DNA of 64,000 nt from Terriglobia bacterium. Its GTDB lineage: Bacteria > Acidobacteriota > Terriglobia > Terriglobales > Acidobacteriaceae. Within the stretch, counting starts at the first letter, position 1. Every line of letters begins with the position of its first letter. The translations under genes and the position numbers were made by a program. This document shows positions 2,061 through 55,726 of this stretch, in pieces. The DNA is taken from assembly GCA_032252755.1 (NCBI GenBank), contig JAVUPY010000093.1:62001-126000 (forward strand), given 5' to 3'. Below the pieces are notes generated by a model. The model saw nothing but the letters and a program-made list of their open reading frames with translations. It was not told the origin of the DNA and ran no database searches.

Positions 2061-3041
2061 TTACCAGGCAATCAGCCGCATCTTGTCGATCCAGGTCTGG
2101 TAGTCGGTCATGGTGCTGTTTCCATCCATCTGGAAAGCCGTATTCAACTCGTACGCACTCGCGCTCTTCGGATAGTAGGACCGGTTGATATAGCTCTTCT
2201 TCCCATTCAGTGTGACCGCGATGAACAGTGCTTTGCCTCCCACTGTGCGCTGGAATTCCAGCACAAGATGGTTCCACGTGTAAGCCTGCGGCGTGCTGCA
2301 CGGAATCCCCGTTTTTACCCAAACGTGATTGGCCGTGTCCCACACGTCCCAATCCTTGTGGTCTTTGTAGTCGCATTGGGTTCCAAAGATGTACTTCTGC
2401 CCGTTCAGAGACTGGTTGACATCGAACTCCAATGCCTGCGAAGCCGAGGGATTCTTCAGGTAGAAGTAGAGATCGTAAACGAAGTTCCGCACCGAGCTGT
2501 TGCCGCCCAACTGCCGCCACCACAGCGCCGACGAGTACGGGTTCGATCCACCCAGAAAGAACGTTGCCGATTTGCCATCCAGGGAAGGGCTGCTCTGGTC
2601 AATGGCCATCGAATAGTCAGCGCTCGGTCCATTGCCACCTTGTCCAGCGCAAGCGTCACAAGAGGACCATCCGGTCATCTGATCAATGTTGTTGTAATAG
2701 GTGGCATTCGACGGGATTGTTGTCGAGGTGCTGGTAACCTTGATGGTTAGCGCTTGTTTCTGAACATAGCCCGTCGAATCCCATGACTGCACAACGACGT
2801 AGTGACTGCCCGTCGACGCGGATATATAGGTGTCCACCTTCGCGGCGTTGACCTTGTACTTGAGAACGTTGTCGAAATAAACCGCCATCGCTGTAATGGT
2901 ATGAGTAGAACTGCTGCTTGCAACCACATGAACGGGTGAACCAACGCTTGATCCTGTGCTGGGTGATGAAACGGTGACGCTGGCAAATGACGCACACGCC
3001 AGCGTGATGATTGCGAACACAACACGAAGTGCAGTTCTCAC
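2061..3041 (-). CDS. Secreted Ig-like domain protein
   Basis: A 326-aa predicted secreted protein. A GTG at 3041 is preceded by GGAG at suitable spacing and opens onto a signal peptide (RTALRVVFAIITLACASFA). It is followed by a Ser/Thr-rich Ig-like module of about 90 residues (SSPSTGSSVGSPVHV...) of the type often seen in Acidobacteria, then a longer Trp/Tyr- and Asn-rich segment with several Cys (CDAC, TQCDYKDHKDWDVW) resembling a beta-sandwich lectin-like domain. I recognise no catalytic residues. It is probably exported to the envelope or medium; ligand unknown. It ends about 110 bp before the ABC ATPase on the same strand. Confidence 0.7.
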   Translation of the reverse strand: MRTALRVVFAIITLACASFASVTVSSPSTGSSVGSPVHVVASSSSTHTITAMAVYFDNVLKYKVNAAKVDTYISASTGSHYVVVQSWDSTGYVQKQALTIKVTSTSTTIPSNATYYNNIDQMTGWSSCDACAGQGGNGPSADYSMAIDQSSPSLDGKSATFFLGGSNPYSSALWWRQLGGNSSVRNFVYDLYFYLKNPSASQALEFDVNQSLNGQKYIFGTQCDYKDHKDWDVWDTANHVWVKTGIPCSTPQAYTWNHLVLEFQRTVGGKALFIAVTLNGKKSYINRSYYPKSASAYELNTAFQMDGNSTMTDYQTWIDKMRLIAW

Positions 3042-3359
3042 GACTGTTCTCCGGCGGGGGAATGTGCCGACCTTCCTGAGACTATCTGCTCGGCGCAAAA
3101 GTATGCAGCCGCAATTCGGCCTAGTGAACTCCGGGTTCTGCCCTTATTTCCCATCCGGCAAACTACTTAACCCCGAACTAAACAAGAGAAGCGCAGTGCC
3201 GCAGGACGCCATGGAATACAAGGAGATAGTCACATTTTCCCGAGCCAGGTGATGTGGCTTGGGAGCTTGCCCAATGCAGGAGGGTGAAACCGGGCCTTGC
3301 ACAGGCATCAGGGCTTTTACCGAGGCGCTTTGGGGATATTCGCTGCGACTGAGATTGGC

Positions 3360-3773
3360 TTACGAAGCAGCGCTCATGTCGCCGGACTCCGGCAAAGCAC
3401 GCTTTGGTCCGCGCTTCTTGATCAGCAGAACGCGAATGCGCTCCAGCAATTCGGCCGGAGAATACATGCCCTTGGGAAGGAAGACATCGGCGACGGTGTC
3501 GCGCTCGTAGCCTTTTACCGTGCCGGAAAAGAGAATCGCCGGCGTCATCGGTGACTGCTTCTTGACCCGAGCGATCAGTTCCGCGCCATCGAGTCCCGGC
3601 ATAACAAGGTCGCTGAGGATCAGGTCGATGCCACCCTGGTGGAAAATCCGCAGTGCTTCCTCCGCGTTCGTGCAGGTCACGACACGATAGCCACGCGTCT
3701 CCAGCATCACTTTTCGTATGGAGAGCGACTGCTCGTTATCGTCGACACAGAGGATCGTACGTTTAGGCTTCAT
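3360..3773 (-). CDS. Single-domain response regulator (CheY-like receiver)
   Basis: A 137-aa receiver domain with no output domain. The acidic pair is Asp11-Asp12 (VDDNEQ), the phospho-acceptor Asp55 (LILSDLVMPG), the switch Ser/Thr at 83-85 and the conserved Lys101 (FLPKG). The ATG at 3773 follows AGGAAA; a longer reading from 3866 adds a low-complexity leader not typical of the family. No histidine kinase is adjacent, so it acts as a stand-alone phosphorelay or scaffold component. The 319 bp upstream to the secreted protein hold no gene I can support. Confidence 0.88.
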   Translation of the reverse strand: MKPKRTILCVDDNEQSLSIRKVMLETRGYRVVTCTNAEEALRIFHQGGIDLILSDLVMPGLDGAELIARVKKQSPMTPAILFSGTVKGYERDTVADVFLPKGMYSPAELLERIRVLLIKKRGPKRALPESGDMSAAS

Positions 3774-41615: not shown

Positions 41616-41664
41616 CCGTTGTTCCCTCGGCCCCATCGCATCATTGATATCGAAGAGAGGAATC

Positions 41665-42867
41665 ATGAAAAAGATCTACATAGCTGGTTATCATCAGTCG
41701 AAATTCGGCAAGCTCATGGCTATGACTGTTCCCGAGATCATGAAAGCTGCGGTCGAGGGCGCCTGCAAGGAAGCAAACACCACTCCCGAAATGCTCGACG
41801 TCGGCTCGGTTGGTGCCGCCTGCAACATTTCGCTCAACGAGCAAGGCCTGGTCTCCGGCCTCGCAGCCATCGTTCCGGGCTTGGAGGGCAAACCGATCGA
41901 GTCGGTCGAAAACGCCTGTGCCTCTGGCGGACAGGCCATCCTCTCCGTCATTCAGAAACTTCAATGTGGCTGGGGCGACACCGGCATCGCTCTCGGCTAC
42001 GAAAAAATGCGCGACGCCGACGGCAAAATGGATGGCAAACTCGTCGGCAAAGCTCTCGGCGTTTTCTCGCACCCTCGCGATCGCGAGGGCAAAGTCTACA
42101 TCTTCCCGCACATCTTCGCCGAGGTCATGCAGTGCTACATGTCGCACCACGGCGTCACCGAAGCCGACCTCGCTCACATCGCGGTTCGGGAGTACTGCAA
42201 CGCACGCTTCAATCCCTACGCGCAAATGCGCAATGTCGAACTATCCATCGATGGCGCAACCAAGATTGAAGGCATCAATCGTTACATCGTCGACGGCCTG
42301 CCGCTAAAGACCTACGACTGCTCCCAGATCACCGATGGCTACGCCGCTATGATTCTTGCGACGGAGGAAGGACTAAGGAAACTCGGCGTCGCCAAGTCCG
42401 ACTGCGTCGAAATCGCCGGCTATTGGCAGGCTACCGACCCGCTGCTCAAAGAAGGCCGCGACGTTCTGCGTCCGGTCGGAGCGCACAAAGCCATGCGCAA
42501 GGCATACGAAATGGCTGGCGCTATACCGCACGACGTCAACGTCGCCGAAGTCCACGACTGCTTCACCGTCATGGGCGCGATTGGTACCGAGGTGATCGGC
42601 AAGGCTCCGATCGGCAAGGGAGCGCAATATTGGGTCGATGGGAAATCGAAGGTAGATGGCGAGTGCGGAATCAATCTCTCCGGCGGTCTCGTCGCCAAGG
42701 GTCACCCCATCGGCGCGACCGGAGTCGCCATGCTCGGGTGGTGCTACTGGCAACTGCTGGGAAAGGCGCCGAAGGAATTGCAGGTCCGCAATCCCAAAGT
42801 CGCCGCAACCTTCAACATTGGCGGCCCCATTTGCGCCAGCGTCTGCACCGTCCTCAAGCACGCGTAA
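41665..42867 (+). CDS. Thiolase-family protein (SCP2-thiolase/lipid-transfer type)
   Basis: A 400-aa thiolase. Active-site Cys85 in VENACASGGQA, the NEAF-equivalent VAEVHDCFTVMG, and the GLVAKGHPIGATG His motif are present. The last box reads GGPICASVCTVL. The layout, with HDCF where degradative thiolases have NEAF, fits the SCP2-thiolase/lipid-transfer subgroup acting on bulky or branched acyl-CoAs. ATG 41665 lies downstream of GAGAGG. It ends the cluster and is followed by a clear terminator. Confidence 0.9.
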   Translation: MKKIYIAGYHQSKFGKLMAMTVPEIMKAAVEGACKEANTTPEMLDVGSVGAACNISLNEQGLVSGLAAIVPGLEGKPIESVENACASGGQAILSVIQKLQCGWGDTGIALGYEKMRDADGKMDGKLVGKALGVFSHPRDREGKVYIFPHIFAEVMQCYMSHHGVTEADLAHIAVREYCNARFNPYAQMRNVELSIDGATKIEGINRYIVDGLPLKTYDCSQITDGYAAMILATEEGLRKLGVAKSDCVEIAGYWQATDPLLKEGRDVLRPVGAHKAMRKAYEMAGAIPHDVNVAEVHDCFTVMGAIGTEVIGKAPIGKGAQYWVDGKSKVDGECGINLSGGLVAKGHPIGATGVAMLGWCYWQLLGKAPKELQVRNPKVAATFNIGGPICASVCTVLKHA

Positions 42868-42884
42868 ATCACTTCCGGAATTGT

Positions 42885-42924
42885 GCCCTACCCTTGTCGC
42901 GAAGCGACAGGGTGGGGCTTTTTA
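42885..42924 (+). terminator. Rho-independent terminator of the acyl cluster
   Basis: CCCTACCCTTGTCGC / GCGACAGGGTGGGG around GAA, then CTTTTTAATC. The stem is close in sequence to a palindrome inside the beta-mannosidase gene at 45503-45536. Confidence 0.82.
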
Positions 42925-42952
42925 ATCTTTTCAAGAAGTTACAAGAGAAGTT

Positions 42953-43120
42953 CTAGACCCCGTACCGCTTCCACAGTCGGAACCAGGGATTATCGGCGAG
43001 CAGCTTATCGTGCCTTTGGTTCGCCGCTTCGCGGTCGCGCACCTGCAACGGGCGCTTATCCGGAAGGCTGAAGATCCGCTCCAGCCACTCGATTTCCGAG
43101 ATAGTCTTCTCCAAATCCAT
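42953..43120 (-). CDS. Small 55-aa protein
   Basis: A complete short frame from ATG 43120 to TAG 42953: it begins MDLEKTISEIEWLERIFSL, continues DKRPLQVRDREAANQRHDKL and ends NPWFRLWKRYGV. It is amphipathic and highly charged with a Trp-rich C-terminus, a composition typical of real protein, and it fills an otherwise empty 390-bp interval. The upstream ribosome binding site is weak (GACGG). No family recognised. Confidence 0.5.
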   Translation of the reverse strand: MDLEKTISEIEWLERIFSLPDKRPLQVRDREAANQRHDKLLADNPWFRLWKRYGV

Positions 43121-43255
43121 AGCCGTCAGTTAATGGATGCAGATTGCCCATTCAACGATACCGTTGAATACTGCGGAAAATGGAGGATAATCTTCACAAC
43201 CTTTTTTTGGAACGCCTCTTGACATTCGGCATCTTACGAATCAGAGGTTCTGGTT

Positions 43256-43630
43256 ATGAGCACCGCCGGTAGGGACATTGAGCAGGAGATGAGCGTTGTT
43301 CCCCTGCAGCACGCCGTTTTTTGCGTCAATTGTGAAAACGTCAGCAACAGCCCTCATGACATCTGTGAGGTATGCGGCAGCCATTCGCTGGTCAGCCTCT
43401 TCCGAATGCTGGGCGGAACCCTGCGCGGAAAAAACCATGTTCCGGAACTGGTCAAGTACAACCTCGAACTCAGCATACGCGTAAGCGAACTCTCCGCGGC
43501 CGATCTTAACCATGCTATTGAGGTGCTCACGACTCTTGCGCAAGTCAGCAAGGGTCTCCAGACGCTTCACATGAACGTAGAGTCGGTCTTCGATGCCCGG
43601 CCGCAGCACGTCCTCGAAGCCGCGGCCTGA
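43256..43630 (+). CDS. Zinc-ribbon protein
   Basis: A 124-aa protein with a four-Cys zinc ribbon, CVNCENVSNSPHDICEVCG (CxxC at about residues 23-26 and 37-40), followed by a helical region with two heptad-like segments (residues 55-105). No enzymatic motif. Such small acidobacterial zinc-ribbon proteins may mediate protein or nucleic-acid contacts. It stands alone, convergent with the beta-mannosidase gene. Upstream an AT-rich stretch around 43180-43250 is a plausible promoter region. Confidence 0.65.
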   Translation: MSTAGRDIEQEMSVVPLQHAVFCVNCENVSNSPHDICEVCGSHSLVSLFRMLGGTLRGKNHVPELVKYNLELSIRVSELSAADLNHAIEVLTTLAQVSKGLQTLHMNVESVFDARPQHVLEAAA

Positions 43631-43695
43631 TGCGAAGCAGGTAAAACCGCGCCCAGCTTGACCGCGACACTTCCCCGGACACGATGCGCCCAAGC

Positions 43696-46377
43696 TTATT
43701 CTCCTTTCGGCGACTCCCCCGGCGGGAACGCATCGGTAATATTCCGGATCCGCATCGCTCTCTTGATTTCGTCGAGCCCCATTTTGCTCTTCAGAGTAAT
43801 CGTGACCGGCTCGCTAGGGAGCAGATCGAAATAGTTATCGGACAGCGTAACGTCGGCATCCCCAAAGCTAAGATACACATGCCGCGCCAGCACCGCCGAT
43901 TGCAGCTTTAACGAATACTCGCCATTCCCGCCCGCAATCTCCGACTGAATCTTTGGGACCGGCAGCGCCAGGTTCCGCGTGATATCGAACATCATCAGGT
44001 TGCGCGACACTACCTTTCCGCCGACGCTCAAATCGAACGCCGCGAACGCATGTTGCGCATCCGTGCCCTTCAGTAAGTCCTCGCGCTTGAACGTCGCATA
44101 GATTTTGCTCGACAGGTCCGGCACAGTAATCGTCTGCTTGTTTTCGAACAACTGCTTGCCTGAGAAATCCATCACGCGAATGCGAAGTTCCGCCGGCGTC
44201 GCCTGCAATTTGTCCGAGACCACGAACGTCGATACGATCCCGTCCACCTCGAACGGCGAGACCAGCAGGTCGTTATAGAACCGCCGCGCGTAGTACTGCA
44301 GCGCCTTCCATCGCCCGTAATAATCAATGCTCGACCACGATGCCACCGGCCAGCAATCGTTCAGTTGCCAGTAGAGCGAGCCCATCACCCGCGGCATCTG
44401 CCGTCGCAGATGCTCCGCCCCAACCTTGATCGCCTCCGCCTGCAGCACCTGGCTTACATAAATGAACGACTCGAAATCCTTCGGCTCGTGATATTCACGC
44501 AACATGTACGTCCGTATGCGCTCGTTCCCGCCAACGTTCTTCTGATGCTCCTGCATCACCGCCGACAGTAGGTCCAAATCCTTCGGTCCGGCGAACTGCC
44601 TTATCGTCCTCATCTCCGGGAACGACTGGAACCCGTACTCGGACATAAACCGCGGGAACTGCTTTGTGTAATCGTCGATCGGCGCCAGAGCGTGCCACAC
44701 CGCCCAGTAGTGCATGTCGCCGTTGCTCTGCCCATCCGGGTTTGGTTCGAAATTCGACGATGGCGAACTCGGCCAGTACGGGGTCCCATCGCCGTATTCC
44801 GTCACCACGCTCTTGATAATGTCGTGGAACATAATTAAGTAGTCCTGCCAGACCCGCTCGCGCTCCGTCGGCGAAATCGATTCCTTGAACGCCTGCCTGT
44901 CGCCCCAATACTTCCATCCTGTCTCGACCTCGTTGTTACCGTTCCACAGCGCCAGTGACGGATGATCGCGCAACCGCTTCACCTGCTCGATAGTTTCTTC
45001 GCGCACGTTCTTCTGGTACGGCAGATCTCCCGGCACCATCGCTCCACCGAAAATAAAGTCCTGCCACACCATGATTCCGAGTTCATCACAGATATCGTAG
45101 AAGTCATCCGTCTCGTAATATCCGCCGCCCCATGCCCGAACCATGTTCATATGCGCATCTTTTGCCGCCTGCAGAATTCTGCGATGCACCTCCGGCGTGA
45201 CGCTCGGCGCGAAGCTGTCGAACGGAATCACATTCGCGCCCTTCGCGAAGATCGGAATCCCGTTCACGACAAACTCAAAGCTCTTCCCCCACTGGTCCAC
45301 CTGTCGCCGAAGTTCCAGGGACCGCAACCCCGTCCGAACCTGCGCATGATCCGCGCTCGTTTTTCCGCGCCGCACCGTCGCCGTGAATTTATACAGCGCC
45401 TGCGCCCCATATCCGTTCGGATACCACCGGTCCGGCTTCGCAATTTCGAATGGAATCGCCACGTGATTCATGCCTGCATCGAGATGAACCTTCTGCTGTG
45501 CTCCACCCTTATCGTCCGCTTTCGGCGATAGGGTGGGGTTGTTCTCTTCTGCGTACCCGATACTCACATCCACATCCACCGGAGCCTCCGCCAAGATATC
45601 CAGCTCCGCCGAGAGCTTCGCCTTCGCCTCGGTCACCTTGGCCTGATGAATATGGAAGTTGTCGATCCGCACATCATCCCACGCATATAACTCCACCGGC
45701 TGCCATATCCCCTCGGTCACATACCGCGGCCCCCAATCCCACCCATAGTTGTACGGCGCTTTTCTCGTATACGGATCCGTCGCAATCCCCTCCTCGGTCA
45801 CCGTCAACACCTGGCTCACCGTCGGCAGCCGATAGGGAAGCGCCTTCACCTTCGGCAGCATGTACATCACTGGCGAATGGAACACGATGCGCAGCGTATT
45901 GCTCCCCGCGTGCAGCTTGTCTTTTACCGGCACCCGCCAGTGCCGAAACATATTGTCTGCGCTCAAAATCGGTACATCATTCAAGAAAACGTCGGCATAG
46001 GTATCCAGCCCGGCAAACAGCAATTCCAGGTGCCCTCTCTGCAGCATCGCCGGCGTGACCTCGAACTCGGTCTCGTACTCCCAGTCCGTCAGCCCAATCC
46101 ACTGCAGCGTTGGCTCGTTGTCTCCGTAGAACGGATCCGGGATCAGCTTGTTGTGTAGCAGATCGGTCTGCACCACCCCCGGAACCTCCGCCTGGTGCCA
46201 CTGCTCTACCTCTGGATGTCCTTTGTCGTTGATGGCGCGAAAACGCCATCCCTTATCGATCACAATTGAAGTGGATTCCATCCCCAAAGCGCTCGGTATA
46301 AAGGAGAGAAGTAAGAAAGTGACGGCGGGAACAATCGAAACTACGCGAAGAATTGCTTCAGAGGATCGAAGATGCAT
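43696..46377 (-). CDS. Secreted GH2 beta-mannosidase
   Basis: An 893-aa glycoside hydrolase family 2 enzyme removing beta-mannosyl residues from mannan- or glycan-derived oligosaccharides. A signal peptide follows ATG 46377. N-terminal jelly-roll and Ig-like domains (WRFRAINDKGHPEVEQWHQA) precede the TIM barrel (about 340-640) with the acid/base Glu in LWNGNNEVETG and nucleophile Glu in FMSEYGFQSFP. C-terminal beta domains follow. The residues NPTLSPKADDKGG near 280 are encoded by an imperfect palindrome (45503-45536) that looks like an inserted repeat. It is divergent from a sugar transporter gene; the shared 237 bp probably holds both promoters. Confidence 0.93.
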   Translation of the reverse strand: MHLRSSEAILRVVSIVPAVTFLLLSFIPSALGMESTSIVIDKGWRFRAINDKGHPEVEQWHQAEVPGVVQTDLLHNKLIPDPFYGDNEPTLQWIGLTDWEYETEFEVTPAMLQRGHLELLFAGLDTYADVFLNDVPILSADNMFRHWRVPVKDKLHAGSNTLRIVFHSPVMYMLPKVKALPYRLPTVSQVLTVTEEGIATDPYTRKAPYNYGWDWGPRYVTEGIWQPVELYAWDDVRIDNFHIHQAKVTEAKAKLSAELDILAEAPVDVDVSIGYAEENNPTLSPKADDKGGAQQKVHLDAGMNHVAIPFEIAKPDRWYPNGYGAQALYKFTATVRRGKTSADHAQVRTGLRSLELRRQVDQWGKSFEFVVNGIPIFAKGANVIPFDSFAPSVTPEVHRRILQAAKDAHMNMVRAWGGGYYETDDFYDICDELGIMVWQDFIFGGAMVPGDLPYQKNVREETIEQVKRLRDHPSLALWNGNNEVETGWKYWGDRQAFKESISPTERERVWQDYLIMFHDIIKSVVTEYGDGTPYWPSSPSSNFEPNPDGQSNGDMHYWAVWHALAPIDDYTKQFPRFMSEYGFQSFPEMRTIRQFAGPKDLDLLSAVMQEHQKNVGGNERIRTYMLREYHEPKDFESFIYVSQVLQAEAIKVGAEHLRRQMPRVMGSLYWQLNDCWPVASWSSIDYYGRWKALQYYARRFYNDLLVSPFEVDGIVSTFVVSDKLQATPAELRIRVMDFSGKQLFENKQTITVPDLSSKIYATFKREDLLKGTDAQHAFAAFDLSVGGKVVSRNLMMFDITRNLALPVPKIQSEIAGGNGEYSLKLQSAVLARHVYLSFGDADVTLSDNYFDLLPSEPVTITLKSKMGLDEIKRAMRIRNITDAFPPGESPKGE
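45503..45536. repeat. Palindromic element inside the beta-mannosidase frame
   Basis: CCACCCTTATCG (45503-45514) faces CGATAGGGTGG (45526-45536) with a single unpaired T. Its arms resemble the terminator stem at 42885-42924. It is in frame and adds a hydrophilic Pro/Lys/Asp-rich peptide to the encoded enzyme. Confidence 0.6.
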
Positions 46378-46614
46378 TGGTACCCCCGGCAGGCAGACCA
46401 TTCGGGCTGCCGAAGCTTCGCGGCGGATTATACGGCCCCGGGCGCTGAAACGCAGTATTCGGGACAGCGCTAGTCGTTTTCTTGAAAAACAAATAGGCTG
46501 GCCGCACGCTGTGTCGCTAGAATGGGACGATTCTGTTACATTTCATGCTCTTATATCGGCCGTTTTCTGAGCGCTTCTTCCGACAGGTCGAAAGGATGAG
46601 CGCTGGAGGGGTAA

Positions 46615-48072
46615 ATGAATAAGGTGGAGTTGGTCGGGGGAAGGCCCGGCGGTTACAAGACAATTGTTTACGTGATCTGTTCGGTCGCGGCATTGGGCGG
46701 ACTGCTCTTCGGCCTCGACCAGGGATTCATTGCCAACTCTCTTGAGACCATCGAGGCGCACTATCACCTCGGAACTCAGGGTGCCGAGCATTATTCCGCC
46801 ATATTGGCCACCGGCGGTATCGTCGGCGCACTTCTCTCCGGCATCTTCGCTCGCTTCCTCGGGCGCAAGAAGAGCCTCCTTTTTGCCGGCTTCCTCTTCA
46901 CTGCCGCCTCCGCCATCTCGGCTCTGCTCCCGCCGCTTTCGGTGCTCTCGTCATGCCGTTTTGCCCTCGGTTTCGCGGTCGGCGTAGCGTCCTTCGTCGT
47001 TCCGCTTTTTCTCTCCGAGACGGCCCCAGCATCCATCCGTGGCTCCATGGGTACGCTCTTCCAACTGATGATCACGATCGGCATTTTCCTCATCTCGCTG
47101 ACCAACGTCATGATTGCAAGGGCCTTCACAAAAGCCACCACCTCTCTGCCGCTTATGTTCCTGACTATCACTTTGTTCGCGGCTCTCATGTTCCTTGGCG
47201 GCTTTATCCTGCCCGAAAGCCCGCGCTGGCTCATGCTCAAGGGGCGGAAGGAACAGGCGATCGAGGTCCTGCGCCGCACCATGAATACACAGCACGAAAT
47301 CGACGAAGAGATCGCGGAAATCGAGCAGGCCTTGCACGGGCCACAGGGCGCTGGCTTCGGAATCGTGACCCGCGGTTACTTCTTCAAGGTACTGATGGTC
47401 GGCGTTTTTCTGCAGATGTTCCAGCAACTCGTCGGCATTAACATGATGATCTACTATTCGCCAACCATTTTCGGCTATGCGGGAATGAAGGGTCTGCTCG
47501 CTTCAATGACCGTTCCAACCGTGAACATGCTGTTTACCTTCCCGGCGATTCGCCTGGTCGAGAAGTGGGGACGCAAGAAGTTGCTCTACGTCGGCGCGGT
47601 CGCGATGCTTGTCACCATGGTCGCCGCTGGGGTCGCATTCCAAACCATTGGGTCCGCTGCCAACCCTGCAATGATCAGTGGTACTGCGAAGTCTGTGCTG
47701 CTCGTATCGGCGATTCTCTACATCTTCGGCTTCGCCGTCTCCTGGGGACCGGTCGCCTGGCTGGTATGTTCGGAGATATTCCCGCTTGAGGGCCGCGAAG
47801 TCGGCATGACGATCACGACGATGGTTAACTGGACCTTCGCGGGCTTCGTGATGGCCAACGCCCTCTCCTTTATGCAGGCGCACGGAAACGCTTCGATCTT
47901 CTATGTGTTCGCCGGTTTCTGCGTCCTTGCGATTGCGTTCGTCGCCCTGTTCGTGCCGGAGACCAAGGGAATCACTCTCGAAGAAATGGAGTTCAACCTC
48001 AAGAACGGCGTCCGGGTTCGAGACCTTGGCAATCGCGTACCCGCAAAGCCAAACCCGGTCTCCCAAAGCTAA
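46615..48072 (+). CDS. MFS sugar:proton symporter
   Basis: A 485-aa transporter of the sugar porter family with twelve predicted helices. Signature blocks: GGLLFGLDQGFIANS in helix 1, RFLGRKK and the downstream PESPRWL motif after helix 6, QQLVGINMMIYYSPTIFGYA in helix 7, and VPETKGITLEEME at the C-terminus. It imports a hexose; next to a beta-mannosidase, mannose is a likely substrate. ATG 46615 follows GGAGGGG. The divergent intergenic region holds a short palindrome (AGAAT/ATTCT around 46519-46534), a possible operator. Confidence 0.93.
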   Translation: MNKVELVGGRPGGYKTIVYVICSVAALGGLLFGLDQGFIANSLETIEAHYHLGTQGAEHYSAILATGGIVGALLSGIFARFLGRKKSLLFAGFLFTAASAISALLPPLSVLSSCRFALGFAVGVASFVVPLFLSETAPASIRGSMGTLFQLMITIGIFLISLTNVMIARAFTKATTSLPLMFLTITLFAALMFLGGFILPESPRWLMLKGRKEQAIEVLRRTMNTQHEIDEEIAEIEQALHGPQGAGFGIVTRGYFFKVLMVGVFLQMFQQLVGINMMIYYSPTIFGYAGMKGLLASMTVPTVNMLFTFPAIRLVEKWGRKKLLYVGAVAMLVTMVAAGVAFQTIGSAANPAMISGTAKSVLLVSAILYIFGFAVSWGPVAWLVCSEIFPLEGREVGMTITTMVNWTFAGFVMANALSFMQAHGNASIFYVFAGFCVLAIAFVALFVPETKGITLEEMEFNLKNGVRVRDLGNRVPAKPNPVSQS

Positions 48073-54286: not shown

Positions 54287-54434
54287 GTGCGGCGCCGATT
54301 CCCGAGGCCTAAAGACGCAAAACTATTGCTCGTACCTCACAGACGTGGACCTGCCGTCGCAGTAGTATTCCCTGCATCGGCCCCTTCTCAGTCCGAGTCC
54401 TTCGGACCGCAGAACTCACCCGAGGAGGTGTCCC

Positions 54435-54872
54435 TTGGCAACCATGCCAAAAACCGTAACCGCACTGGAAATTAAACAGATAATCCGCAATATCGCGCAG
54501 GAATATGCGAAACACATGAACGCACGCAACGTAGATCAGGTCGTAGCCTTCTATGCTGTTGATGGCCGCGTCCTGGCTCCCTTTAAACCCATGGTGCAGG
54601 GCCACAAAGCAATTCGCCAGCTTGTGGAAGAGATGTTCAAGGAAGCCGATCCGCGCAACCTATCCATTGAAACCCAGAACGTTGAGGTCGCGGAGAATCT
54701 TGCCTTCAGTGATGGAATCTACTCGATGATCGCCACGCTCCCCACCGGGAAGCGCATGGATTATCGTGGAACGTGGGTTACAACCTTACGCCGGGAAGGA
54801 CCAGCGGACTGGAAGATCGTTTCCCACATCTACAATACCGATCTGCCTATGACAGACTTTCTGAAAAAATAG
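54435..54872 (+). CDS. NTF2-like (SnoaL/DUF4440) protein
   Basis: A 145-aa cone-shaped alpha+beta protein: an N-terminal helix (IRNIAQEYAKHMNARNVDQV) with VAFYAVDGRVLAPF and C-terminal strands (GTWVTTLRREGPADWKIVSH). The TTG at 54435 is selected because GAGGAGGTG ends 4 bp upstream; the ATG at 54444 would be too far from it. The pocket of this fold serves varied enzymes or binding proteins; no catalytic pair is obvious. Stand-alone gene. Confidence 0.82.
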   Translation: MATMPKTVTALEIKQIIRNIAQEYAKHMNARNVDQVVAFYAVDGRVLAPFKPMVQGHKAIRQLVEEMFKEADPRNLSIETQNVEVAENLAFSDGIYSMIATLPTGKRMDYRGTWVTTLRREGPADWKIVSHIYNTDLPMTDFLKK

Positions 54873-54988
54873 GCTGACTGTCCGAGGTCGAGGAGCAAAT
54901 CCACGGCCTCGGAAGATTTCATCTTTCCAAAAGCCTCCCCATAAAACGAAAGCGCCGCTAGTATTTCGTCGAAGAGCGAAGAATCGTC

Positions 54989-55726
54989 TCACTGCGAACT
55001 GAGAACCGGGAAGTGAGCGCGCGCTCCCATCATCTCCGGCACGCTCACAAATTCATATCCCTTCTCGCTATACTCCCGCACAAGATTCTCCGTCGCCTTC
55101 ACCGTGTGTGCCCGGCTGATGCCGAACGCAACGTGGCTTCCGTCGTGAAGCAGAATGACATCACCACCCCTTATCTGGGCATGTGCCTTTTGCTCGATCG
55201 ACTCATTCGATTTTGCGCTCCAGTCATAGCAGGTCACGCGCCACATGATCGGCTCCAGCCCCATCGCCCGCGCCGCCTGAAACGTGCCCGGACGTCTTCC
55301 GCCAAATGGTGGACGAAACAGCGTCGGCGTGATCCCGCACGCGTCTTCGACCGCCTTCTGCGTGTCCGCCAATTGTCGCCGCGTCTCCGCCGGTGAACAC
55401 CAGATCAGGTTCGGATGATTCCACGTATGATTCCCGATCGCGTGGCCAGCCTCCACAACCCGCCGCACAATGTCCGGCCCCTGCTTCACATAGCGCCCAA
55501 TCAGGAAGAACGTGGCTTTGACATTGGCTTTCGCCAGCACATCCAGCAACTGTCCCGTATATGGATCATTCGGTCCGTCGTCGTACGTTAGCGCCAGTTG
55601 CTTTGCTCCCTTCGGCAGCCCGACAAAGCTCCGCCCGTAGAGCTGCCACGTCGGAACCATCGATTCCAATCCCGCGAACGTAGCCGCGCCACATACCGCT
55701 GCCGTGCCGAGAAGCGCTTTCAGCAT
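54989..55726 (-). CDS. Polysaccharide deacetylase (NodB homology, CE4)
   Basis: A 245-aa secreted or membrane-tethered deacetylase removing N- or O-acetyl groups from cell-wall or exopolysaccharide sugars. CE4 motifs: TYDDGPNDPYT (catalytic Asp and metal Asp), HTWNHPNL (metal His pair), RPPFGGRRP, and LLHDGS near the C-terminus (catalytic His). N-terminal hydrophobic segment ALLGTAAVCGAATFAGL acts as signal or anchor. Full length. No synthase genes adjacent. Confidence 0.9.
   Translation of the reverse strand: MLKALLGTAAVCGAATFAGLESMVPTWQLYGRSFVGLPKGAKQLALTYDDGPNDPYTGQLLDVLAKANVKATFFLIGRYVKQGPDIVRRVVEAGHAIGNHTWNHPNLIWCSPAETRRQLADTQKAVEDACGITPTLFRPPFGGRRPGTFQAARAMGLEPIMWRVTCYDWSAKSNESIEQKAHAQIRGGDVILLHDGSHVAFGISRAHTVKATENLVREYSEKGYEFVSVPEMMGARAHFPVLSSQ

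Follow-up and report, generated by a model that had tools for sequence, protein, structure and literature searches.

How did a short palindrome that lies between two genes at one place come to form part of the reading frame of an enzyme at another, and what has it added to the protein? The question arises in a 64,000-nucleotide stretch of the genome of a Terriglobia bacterium (5.39 Mb, 96 contigs), which corresponds to C93:62001-126000 (GenBank contig JAVUPY010000093.1) and is referred to here as the window. One palindrome is intergenic; the other is located within the gene of a beta-mannosidase of glycoside hydrolase family 2 (GH2). Sequence comparisons suggest, with a probability that we put at roughly 87%, that both belong to a non-autonomous mobile repeat resembling repetitive extragenic palindromes (REPs), that its in-gene copies are tolerated insertions, and that the encoded peptide is most probably a linker that has no function by itself.

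The intergenic palindrome (CTACCCTTGTCGCGAAGCGACAGGGTGG) and the palindrome in the GH2 gene (CCACCCTTATCGTCCGCTTTCGGCGATAGGGTGG) have the same orientation. The pattern ACCCTTN(6-30)AGGGTGGG matches the window twice, against 0.02 matches expected, and two or more matches were reached in none of 100 shuffled sequences. With a covariance model of the repeat (described below), the intergenic copy scores 63.3 bits (42877-42925; E = 5.7e-13) and the GH2 copy 59.9 bits (45492-45546; E = 4.6e-12), both being among the 22 copies from which the model was built. Both palindromes are thus present where the original prediction had placed them and belong to one family, and the second, described there as a near relative within coding sequence, lies antisense and in frame in the beta-mannosidase open reading frame (ORF). 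The insert comprises residues 287-301, close to the predicted residue 280; its borders and length were transferred from a clean insert in a glucoamylase gene. Rfam contains no family that matches positions 42000-47000 of the window at the gathering threshold, and a search of a plasmid collection with the GH2 insert region gave no match. The features concerned are as follows.

41644..42867, forward strand: thiolase-like ORF (ORF list, named by eye), upstream of the intergenic copy.
42877..42925, forward strand: intergenic family copy, beginning 10 nt past the stop codon of the thiolase-like ORF (covariance-model match).
42888..42915, forward strand: palindrome proper of the intergenic copy, with GGCTTTTT directly 3' (sequence).
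43696..46401, reverse strand: GH2 beta-mannosidase gene, 901 amino acids (ORF list, Pfam and PDB relatives).
45499..45543, forward strand: 45-nt REP-like unit within the GH2 gene, read on the reverse strand as NNPTLSPKADDKGGA, residues 287-301.
45503..45536, forward strand: palindrome proper in the GH2 gene (pattern and shuffle count).

Across the whole genome, the pattern CCACCCTN(5-30)AGGGTGGG has 9 forward and 7 reverse matches, mostly identical sites read from both strands, and its reversed control has none on either strand. The looser pattern ACCCTN(8-34)AGGGTGG has 22 + 21 matches against 4 + 7 for its control, so that some of these matches are due to chance. An alignment of 22 copies yielded the consensus GTGCCC-YACCCTT-N-TCGC-loop-GCGA-N-AGGGTGGGGC, with the stem GTGCCCYACCCTTNTCGC-loop-GCGANAGGGTGGGGCWGTTC, whose left arm carries an unpaired T. 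The covariance model built from these copies matches at least 64 places in the genome at E < 0.01, a lower bound because scoring covered 150 of 2454 first-look candidates, and one that includes the 22 model-building copies, which match by construction; a 65th row, C70:37175-37206, was excluded as the reverse reading of C70:37167. Listing the genome copies, as the original prediction had advised, therefore reveals a dispersed repeat family, a short imperfect palindrome located mainly outside genes: 60 of the 64 copies are not flagged as coding, and four lie within coding sequence. Sixteen copies are 45-nt units, and the length between the same borders is divisible by three in 40. Two further observations concern the family itself. 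The copies at L193:2094-2183 and L165:2065-2155 have a long loop resembling another palindromic repeat, as if a repeat had inserted into a repeat, and loci L179, L187, and L189 of the same genome represent a related subfamily (GTGCCCCATCCTRGCC...GGCYAGGGTGGGG) that scores lower with the model.

The palindrome is probably a REP-like repeat that is copied by a transposase. The Y1 transposase family PF01797 matches six places in the genome. At one of them, on contig C88 (locus L050), an ORF at 3049-3630 is bracketed by inverted copies of the family at 3001-3028 (forward) and 3646-3673 (reverse). The encoded protein matches PF01797 with 43.1 bits and TnpArep (PDB 4er8_A) with an E value of 8.5e-9, and inspection of its translation by eye shows an HVH motif and a Tyr motif. 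The part of the original prediction that called the palindrome mobile is supported to this extent, namely by a dispersed family whose copies flank a candidate transposase gene. A second gene for a REP-associated tyrosine transposase (RAYT), at C42:54586-54831, lies between copies of another palindrome, GGTCCTTTCC-loop-GGAAAGG, which occurs nine times (L069, C42 around 54406-55088), as expected if each RAYT serves its own repeat. Taken as a comparison, this second REP-like family has none of its nine copies in coding sequence. Many dispersed palindromes and a Y1/HUH transposase gene flanked by its own repeat are features of a RAYT-associated family, and inverted non-GTAG repeats that bracket the transposase gene and in some cases form a family are those of TIRtrons; the present repeat shows both sets of features. 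TIRtrons are the elements of tyrosine transposases associated with terminal inverted repeats (TIRYTs).

By a codon-usage test applied to both flanks, four of the 64 copies count as coding; 283 of 305 random 55-mers of long ORFs, themselves preselected as coding-like by the same score, pass it as well. All four have the 45-nt form, lie antisense in their genes, and are read in one frame, encoding [NK]xPTLSPxxxDKGxA in proteins assigned by Pfam to unrelated families.

Beta-mannosidase, antisense: peptide NNPTLSPKADDKGGA.
Radical-SAM protein, L057:453-507 on contig C27, ORF 54-1295: peptide NSPTLSPKDGDKGRA.
PF10091 glucoamylase, antisense: peptide NYPTLSPNAGDKGGA.
AMP-ligase/PP-binding/acyltransferase protein, antisense: peptide KSPTLSPKDGDKGRA.

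The probability that by chance the four in-gene copies would all be among the 16 units of 45 nt is 1820/635376, or about 0.3%. The in-gene units have 5, 3, 4, and 4 open frames, respectively, two of which are open in all four, so that the sharing of one frame has a chance probability of about 2/240. The frame in use is the most hydrophilic open frame in three of the four units (in the GH2 unit, an unused open frame is more hydrophilic), the mean Kyte-Doolittle hydropathy of the peptides ranges from -0.95 to -1.59, and the arms of all four copies still pair. Searched with a profile of the peptide, the genome yields 16 matches, of which only the four that are its own sources are located in open frames of more than 120 amino acids (413, 462, 872, and 948); the remaining 12 are in open frames of 25-119 amino acids. 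An in-gene copy should be translated, as predicted from sequence, as a near-constant hydrophilic insert of 15 residues.

Further evidence for insertion comes from the homologues of the three other enzymes, which were sampled from 20 chosen genomes (27 of at least 30 loci aligned; L220, L221, and L222, which are weaker ligase-like matches, were left unaligned, and L218 and L232 are the same protein). All seven homologues of the glucoamylase are shorter, six of them by exactly 15 residues and the seventh by 12, and at the codon level the insert measures exactly 45 nt relative to the four homologues shown. Because this insert is clean, the unit can be defined as 45 nt, a multiple of three. In the ligase, the corresponding region exceeds that of each of the 12 aligned homologues by 15-21 residues, with a difference of 45 nt to L205 and L207, and the insert of the radical-SAM protein is absent from all eight rows (seven distinct proteins).

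The insert of the beta-mannosidase falls in PF00703, a domain that spans residues 244-360. The motifs NGNNEVE and FMSEYGFQS, which have catalytic roles, are present at a distance from it, beginning at residues 487 and 585, respectively. In a single-sequence AlphaFold model of the domain (mean predicted local distance difference test [pLDDT] score 59.5, which is low), the peptide forms a coil with a pLDDT below 50 between two strands. A search for GH2 homologues, the test suggested with the original prediction, found matches in 35 of 150 genomes (39 rows). Of the 38 rows outside the source genome, 29 were aligned, and two of these are uninformative (L136 has no residues in the region, and for L159 the wrong frame was picked). 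The peptide is absent from all 27 informative homologues, and none of them shows the case named in advance as refuting, the same peptide without the palindrome.

Several results nevertheless weigh against the simple picture of a transposed unit that adds 15 residues to a protein. The GH2 segment is 35 residues long in the window protein and ranges from 26 to 32 in 26 homologues; in L145 it reaches 38, with an unrelated sequence. The net gain is thus 5-9 residues over 25 of the 27 homologues and 3 over L146, and L145 is 3 residues longer; the closest homologue (69% identity, genome G044) has a segment of 30 and gives a gain of 5. Taken alone, the GH2 gene does not represent a clean insertion. 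Removal of the 15-residue unit would leave the window protein with a segment of 20 residues, and because the net gain is below 15, either the insertion was accompanied by a loss of turn residues or the turn had been unusually short beforehand. The claim of the original prediction that the palindrome adds a hydrophilic peptide hence stands as far as the frame, the peptide-free homologues, and the three similar genes are concerned; what does not stand for GH2 is a gain of the full 15 residues. The insert in the radical-SAM protein comprises 39 residues, of which the 45-nt unit accounts for 15; the other 24 lie outside it and are absent from the aligned homologues. A decayed second copy, considered by eye as the rest of this insert, was dropped, as the covariance model has no match there. 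None of the aligned homologues comes from a genome of the same genus. The frame in use is open in 15 of the 16 units of 45 nt, but each of four other frames is likewise open in between 12 and 16 of these units; in a mixed set of 22 copies the count for the frame in use is 17, and four other frames exceed it. Since other frames are open too, the frame in use is not the only one available. The tag that precedes the stem at its 5' side is GTGC in the alignment, and not the GT[AG]G tetranucleotide found at the 5' foot of REP hairpins according to the available part of PMC6006769; the repeat is therefore classed as REP-like and RAYT/TIRYT-associated rather than as a GTAG REP. Tyrosine-transposase repeats without a GT[AG]G tag are described in the same source (classes 2.6 and 3) and, as terminal inverted repeats (TIRs), in the available part of PMC3733652. 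Finally, 22 copies from three other genomes (G021, 16; G112, 3; G049, 3), chosen mainly from peptide matches plus part of the model matches and judged with a codon model trained on the window, include none that is convincingly located in the middle of a protein.

A tolerated insertion of a REP-like mobile repeat is the reading best supported. TnpAREP cleaves and rejoins REPs, as reported in the available part of PMC6006769. By inference, the RAYT would move the folded single-stranded unit without target duplication, and most insertions into genes would subsequently be removed by selection. The 45-nt unit, which keeps the frame and has stop-free frames, would persist in surface loops, and in the mannosidase the site would be a turn that connects two strands of the PF00703 domain. 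There, insertion may have been accompanied by the loss of about 6-10 codons of the turn (relative to the homologues), or the target turn may have been unusually short. Recombination or gene conversion between palindromes instead of transposition is an unlikely route for the copies into genes. It would agree with the apparent loss of neighbouring codons in the GH2 gene and with the finding that, among the 63 other copies, the nearest to the GH2 copy (39 of 45 positions identical) is another in-gene copy, but the inserts in the glucoamylase and the ligase fit 45-nt units in different gene families, and the genome contains a transposase gene with the repeat on both sides. The same 39/45 identity, together with three further genes that carry the same insert, makes it exceedingly improbable that simple drift of the GH2 turn produced a hydrophilic sequence encoded by DNA that is palindromic by accident. 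The turn does vary in length and sequence among GH2 homologues, and the net gain is small; however, the model match also spans the unpaired tag and the 3' flank, even if the copy was used in training.

Whether the peptide was retained for a benefit to the protein or the mRNA, as a flexible linker, a surface charge, or a translation-slowing hairpin, is a separate matter. The single frame in all four genes, the arms that still pair, and the hydrophilic peptide would be expected in that case, but the host enzymes are unrelated, their aligned homologues lack the peptide, and tolerance combined with the loss of harmful insertions would generate an equal pattern. We consider such a benefit quite improbable; domestication in the sense of a gained function, as the original prediction had it, is unproven, and tolerance suffices. 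A possible but doubtful extension of tolerated insertion is that the 45-nt form is a coding-competent mobile element by which the RAYT repeatedly writes the same linker into proteins, possibly selected to be translatable; it would then be a counterpart outside Rickettsia of the rickettsial palindromic elements (RPEs).

The original prediction had also assigned a terminator function to the intergenic palindrome. Inspection by eye shows GGCTTTTT immediately 3' of the hairpin at 42888-42915. A consensus terminator scan of positions 42600-46700 listed two terminator-like sites, against 3.1 expected from shuffling, and this hairpin is not among them; terminator action is unproven. One of the two listed sites is part of the GH2 copy (45515-45537, forward strand, antisense to the gene).

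The repeat is also present in other genomes. Among 100 genomes of the same family, 12 have a match to the peptide profile at E <= 0.1, and the covariance model has 67 matches in G021, 36 in G049, and 6 in G112 at E <= 0.001. At the same threshold there is no match in G044, the genome of the closest GH2 homologue, and the distribution is patchy in that this genome has none and G021 has 67. The examined matches in frames of at least 200 amino acids lie near the ends of ORFs, have a low coding score on one or both sides, or have a better rival frame; a peptide match in G089 (E = 0.011, 653 amino acids) lies outside the examined set. At L272:393-441 (G112, C23), a copy of the repeat encodes the C-terminal residues of a protein that, judged by eye, resembles a RAYT. 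A pattern scan of named genomes, which may exclude the records of the source genome itself, found long-form copies in seven stretches, six of Acidobacteria MAG BP7.bin70 and one of Acidobacteriaceae MAG palsa_340 (MAG, metagenome-assembled genome).

In-frame selfish palindromes have been proposed as an origin of new protein segments. RPEs, reports of which predate 2013 (cited in PMC3733652), are inserted in frame into many proteins, and the present repeat resembles them in that it lies in frame in four unrelated proteins whose homologues lack it. The available part of PMC3733652, with which we compared by description, likewise treats palindromic elements that are in frame in proteins; it reports that the CGTC repeats (RPE-4 and RPE-6 in R. 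conorii) have no associated transposase genes and that a transposase dedicated to the rickettsial CGTC repeats was not found. By contrast, the present repeat brackets a transposase gene in the same genome. The same paper (2013) describes REPs of the GTAG and CGTC families as mostly intergenic, although some, in several bacteria, are located wholly within ORFs, where they encode amino acids; over half of the intragenic inserts are dimers or groups that code for 20-30 residues. The present repeat shares with them the short, multicopy, mostly intergenic palindromes, some of which are translated in ORFs, but its tag is GTGC instead of GTAG or CGTC, each in-gene copy is a single unit that encodes 15 residues, and the one shared frame is a feature for which the available text gives no description among intragenic REPs.

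A further likeness is to the TIRYT/TIRtron systems. Acidobacterial tyrosine transposases with inverted repeats of other types on both sides are described in the available part of PMC3733652, and one of these repeats recurs in the Koribacter genome; the transposase bracketed by inverted repeats of a dispersed family corresponds to Koribacter versatilis ORF1552 and others. The named genomes that carry the present repeat belong to the same phylum as the TIRYT/TIRtron genomes. Compared by description, the GGGGWSAS motif of some TIRs (PMC3733652) was not seen by eye in the present consensus, and the available text makes no mention of in-gene TIR copies, of which the present repeat has four. In-frame insertions of REPs into tnpAREP (subclass 2.4) are described in the available part of PMC6006769 (2018); the frame is intact there as well, but the target is the transposase gene, whereas here it is a set of unrelated enzymes. 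Among the listed titles and abstract openings of the open-licence literature, we found no report of in-frame palindromes in Acidobacteria. A single genome thus combines the repeat, a candidate transposase gene, four in-frame products, and repeat-free homologues, which allows one to test if peptides are written into proteins by a RAYT and if the hosts do no more than tolerate them. If the 45-nt form did prove to be coding-competent, the counterpart of the RPEs would come with its transposase in hand. In-frame insertion of REPs as such is already known; what is unusual here is that the four copies share a frame and that a candidate transposase is encoded by the same genome.

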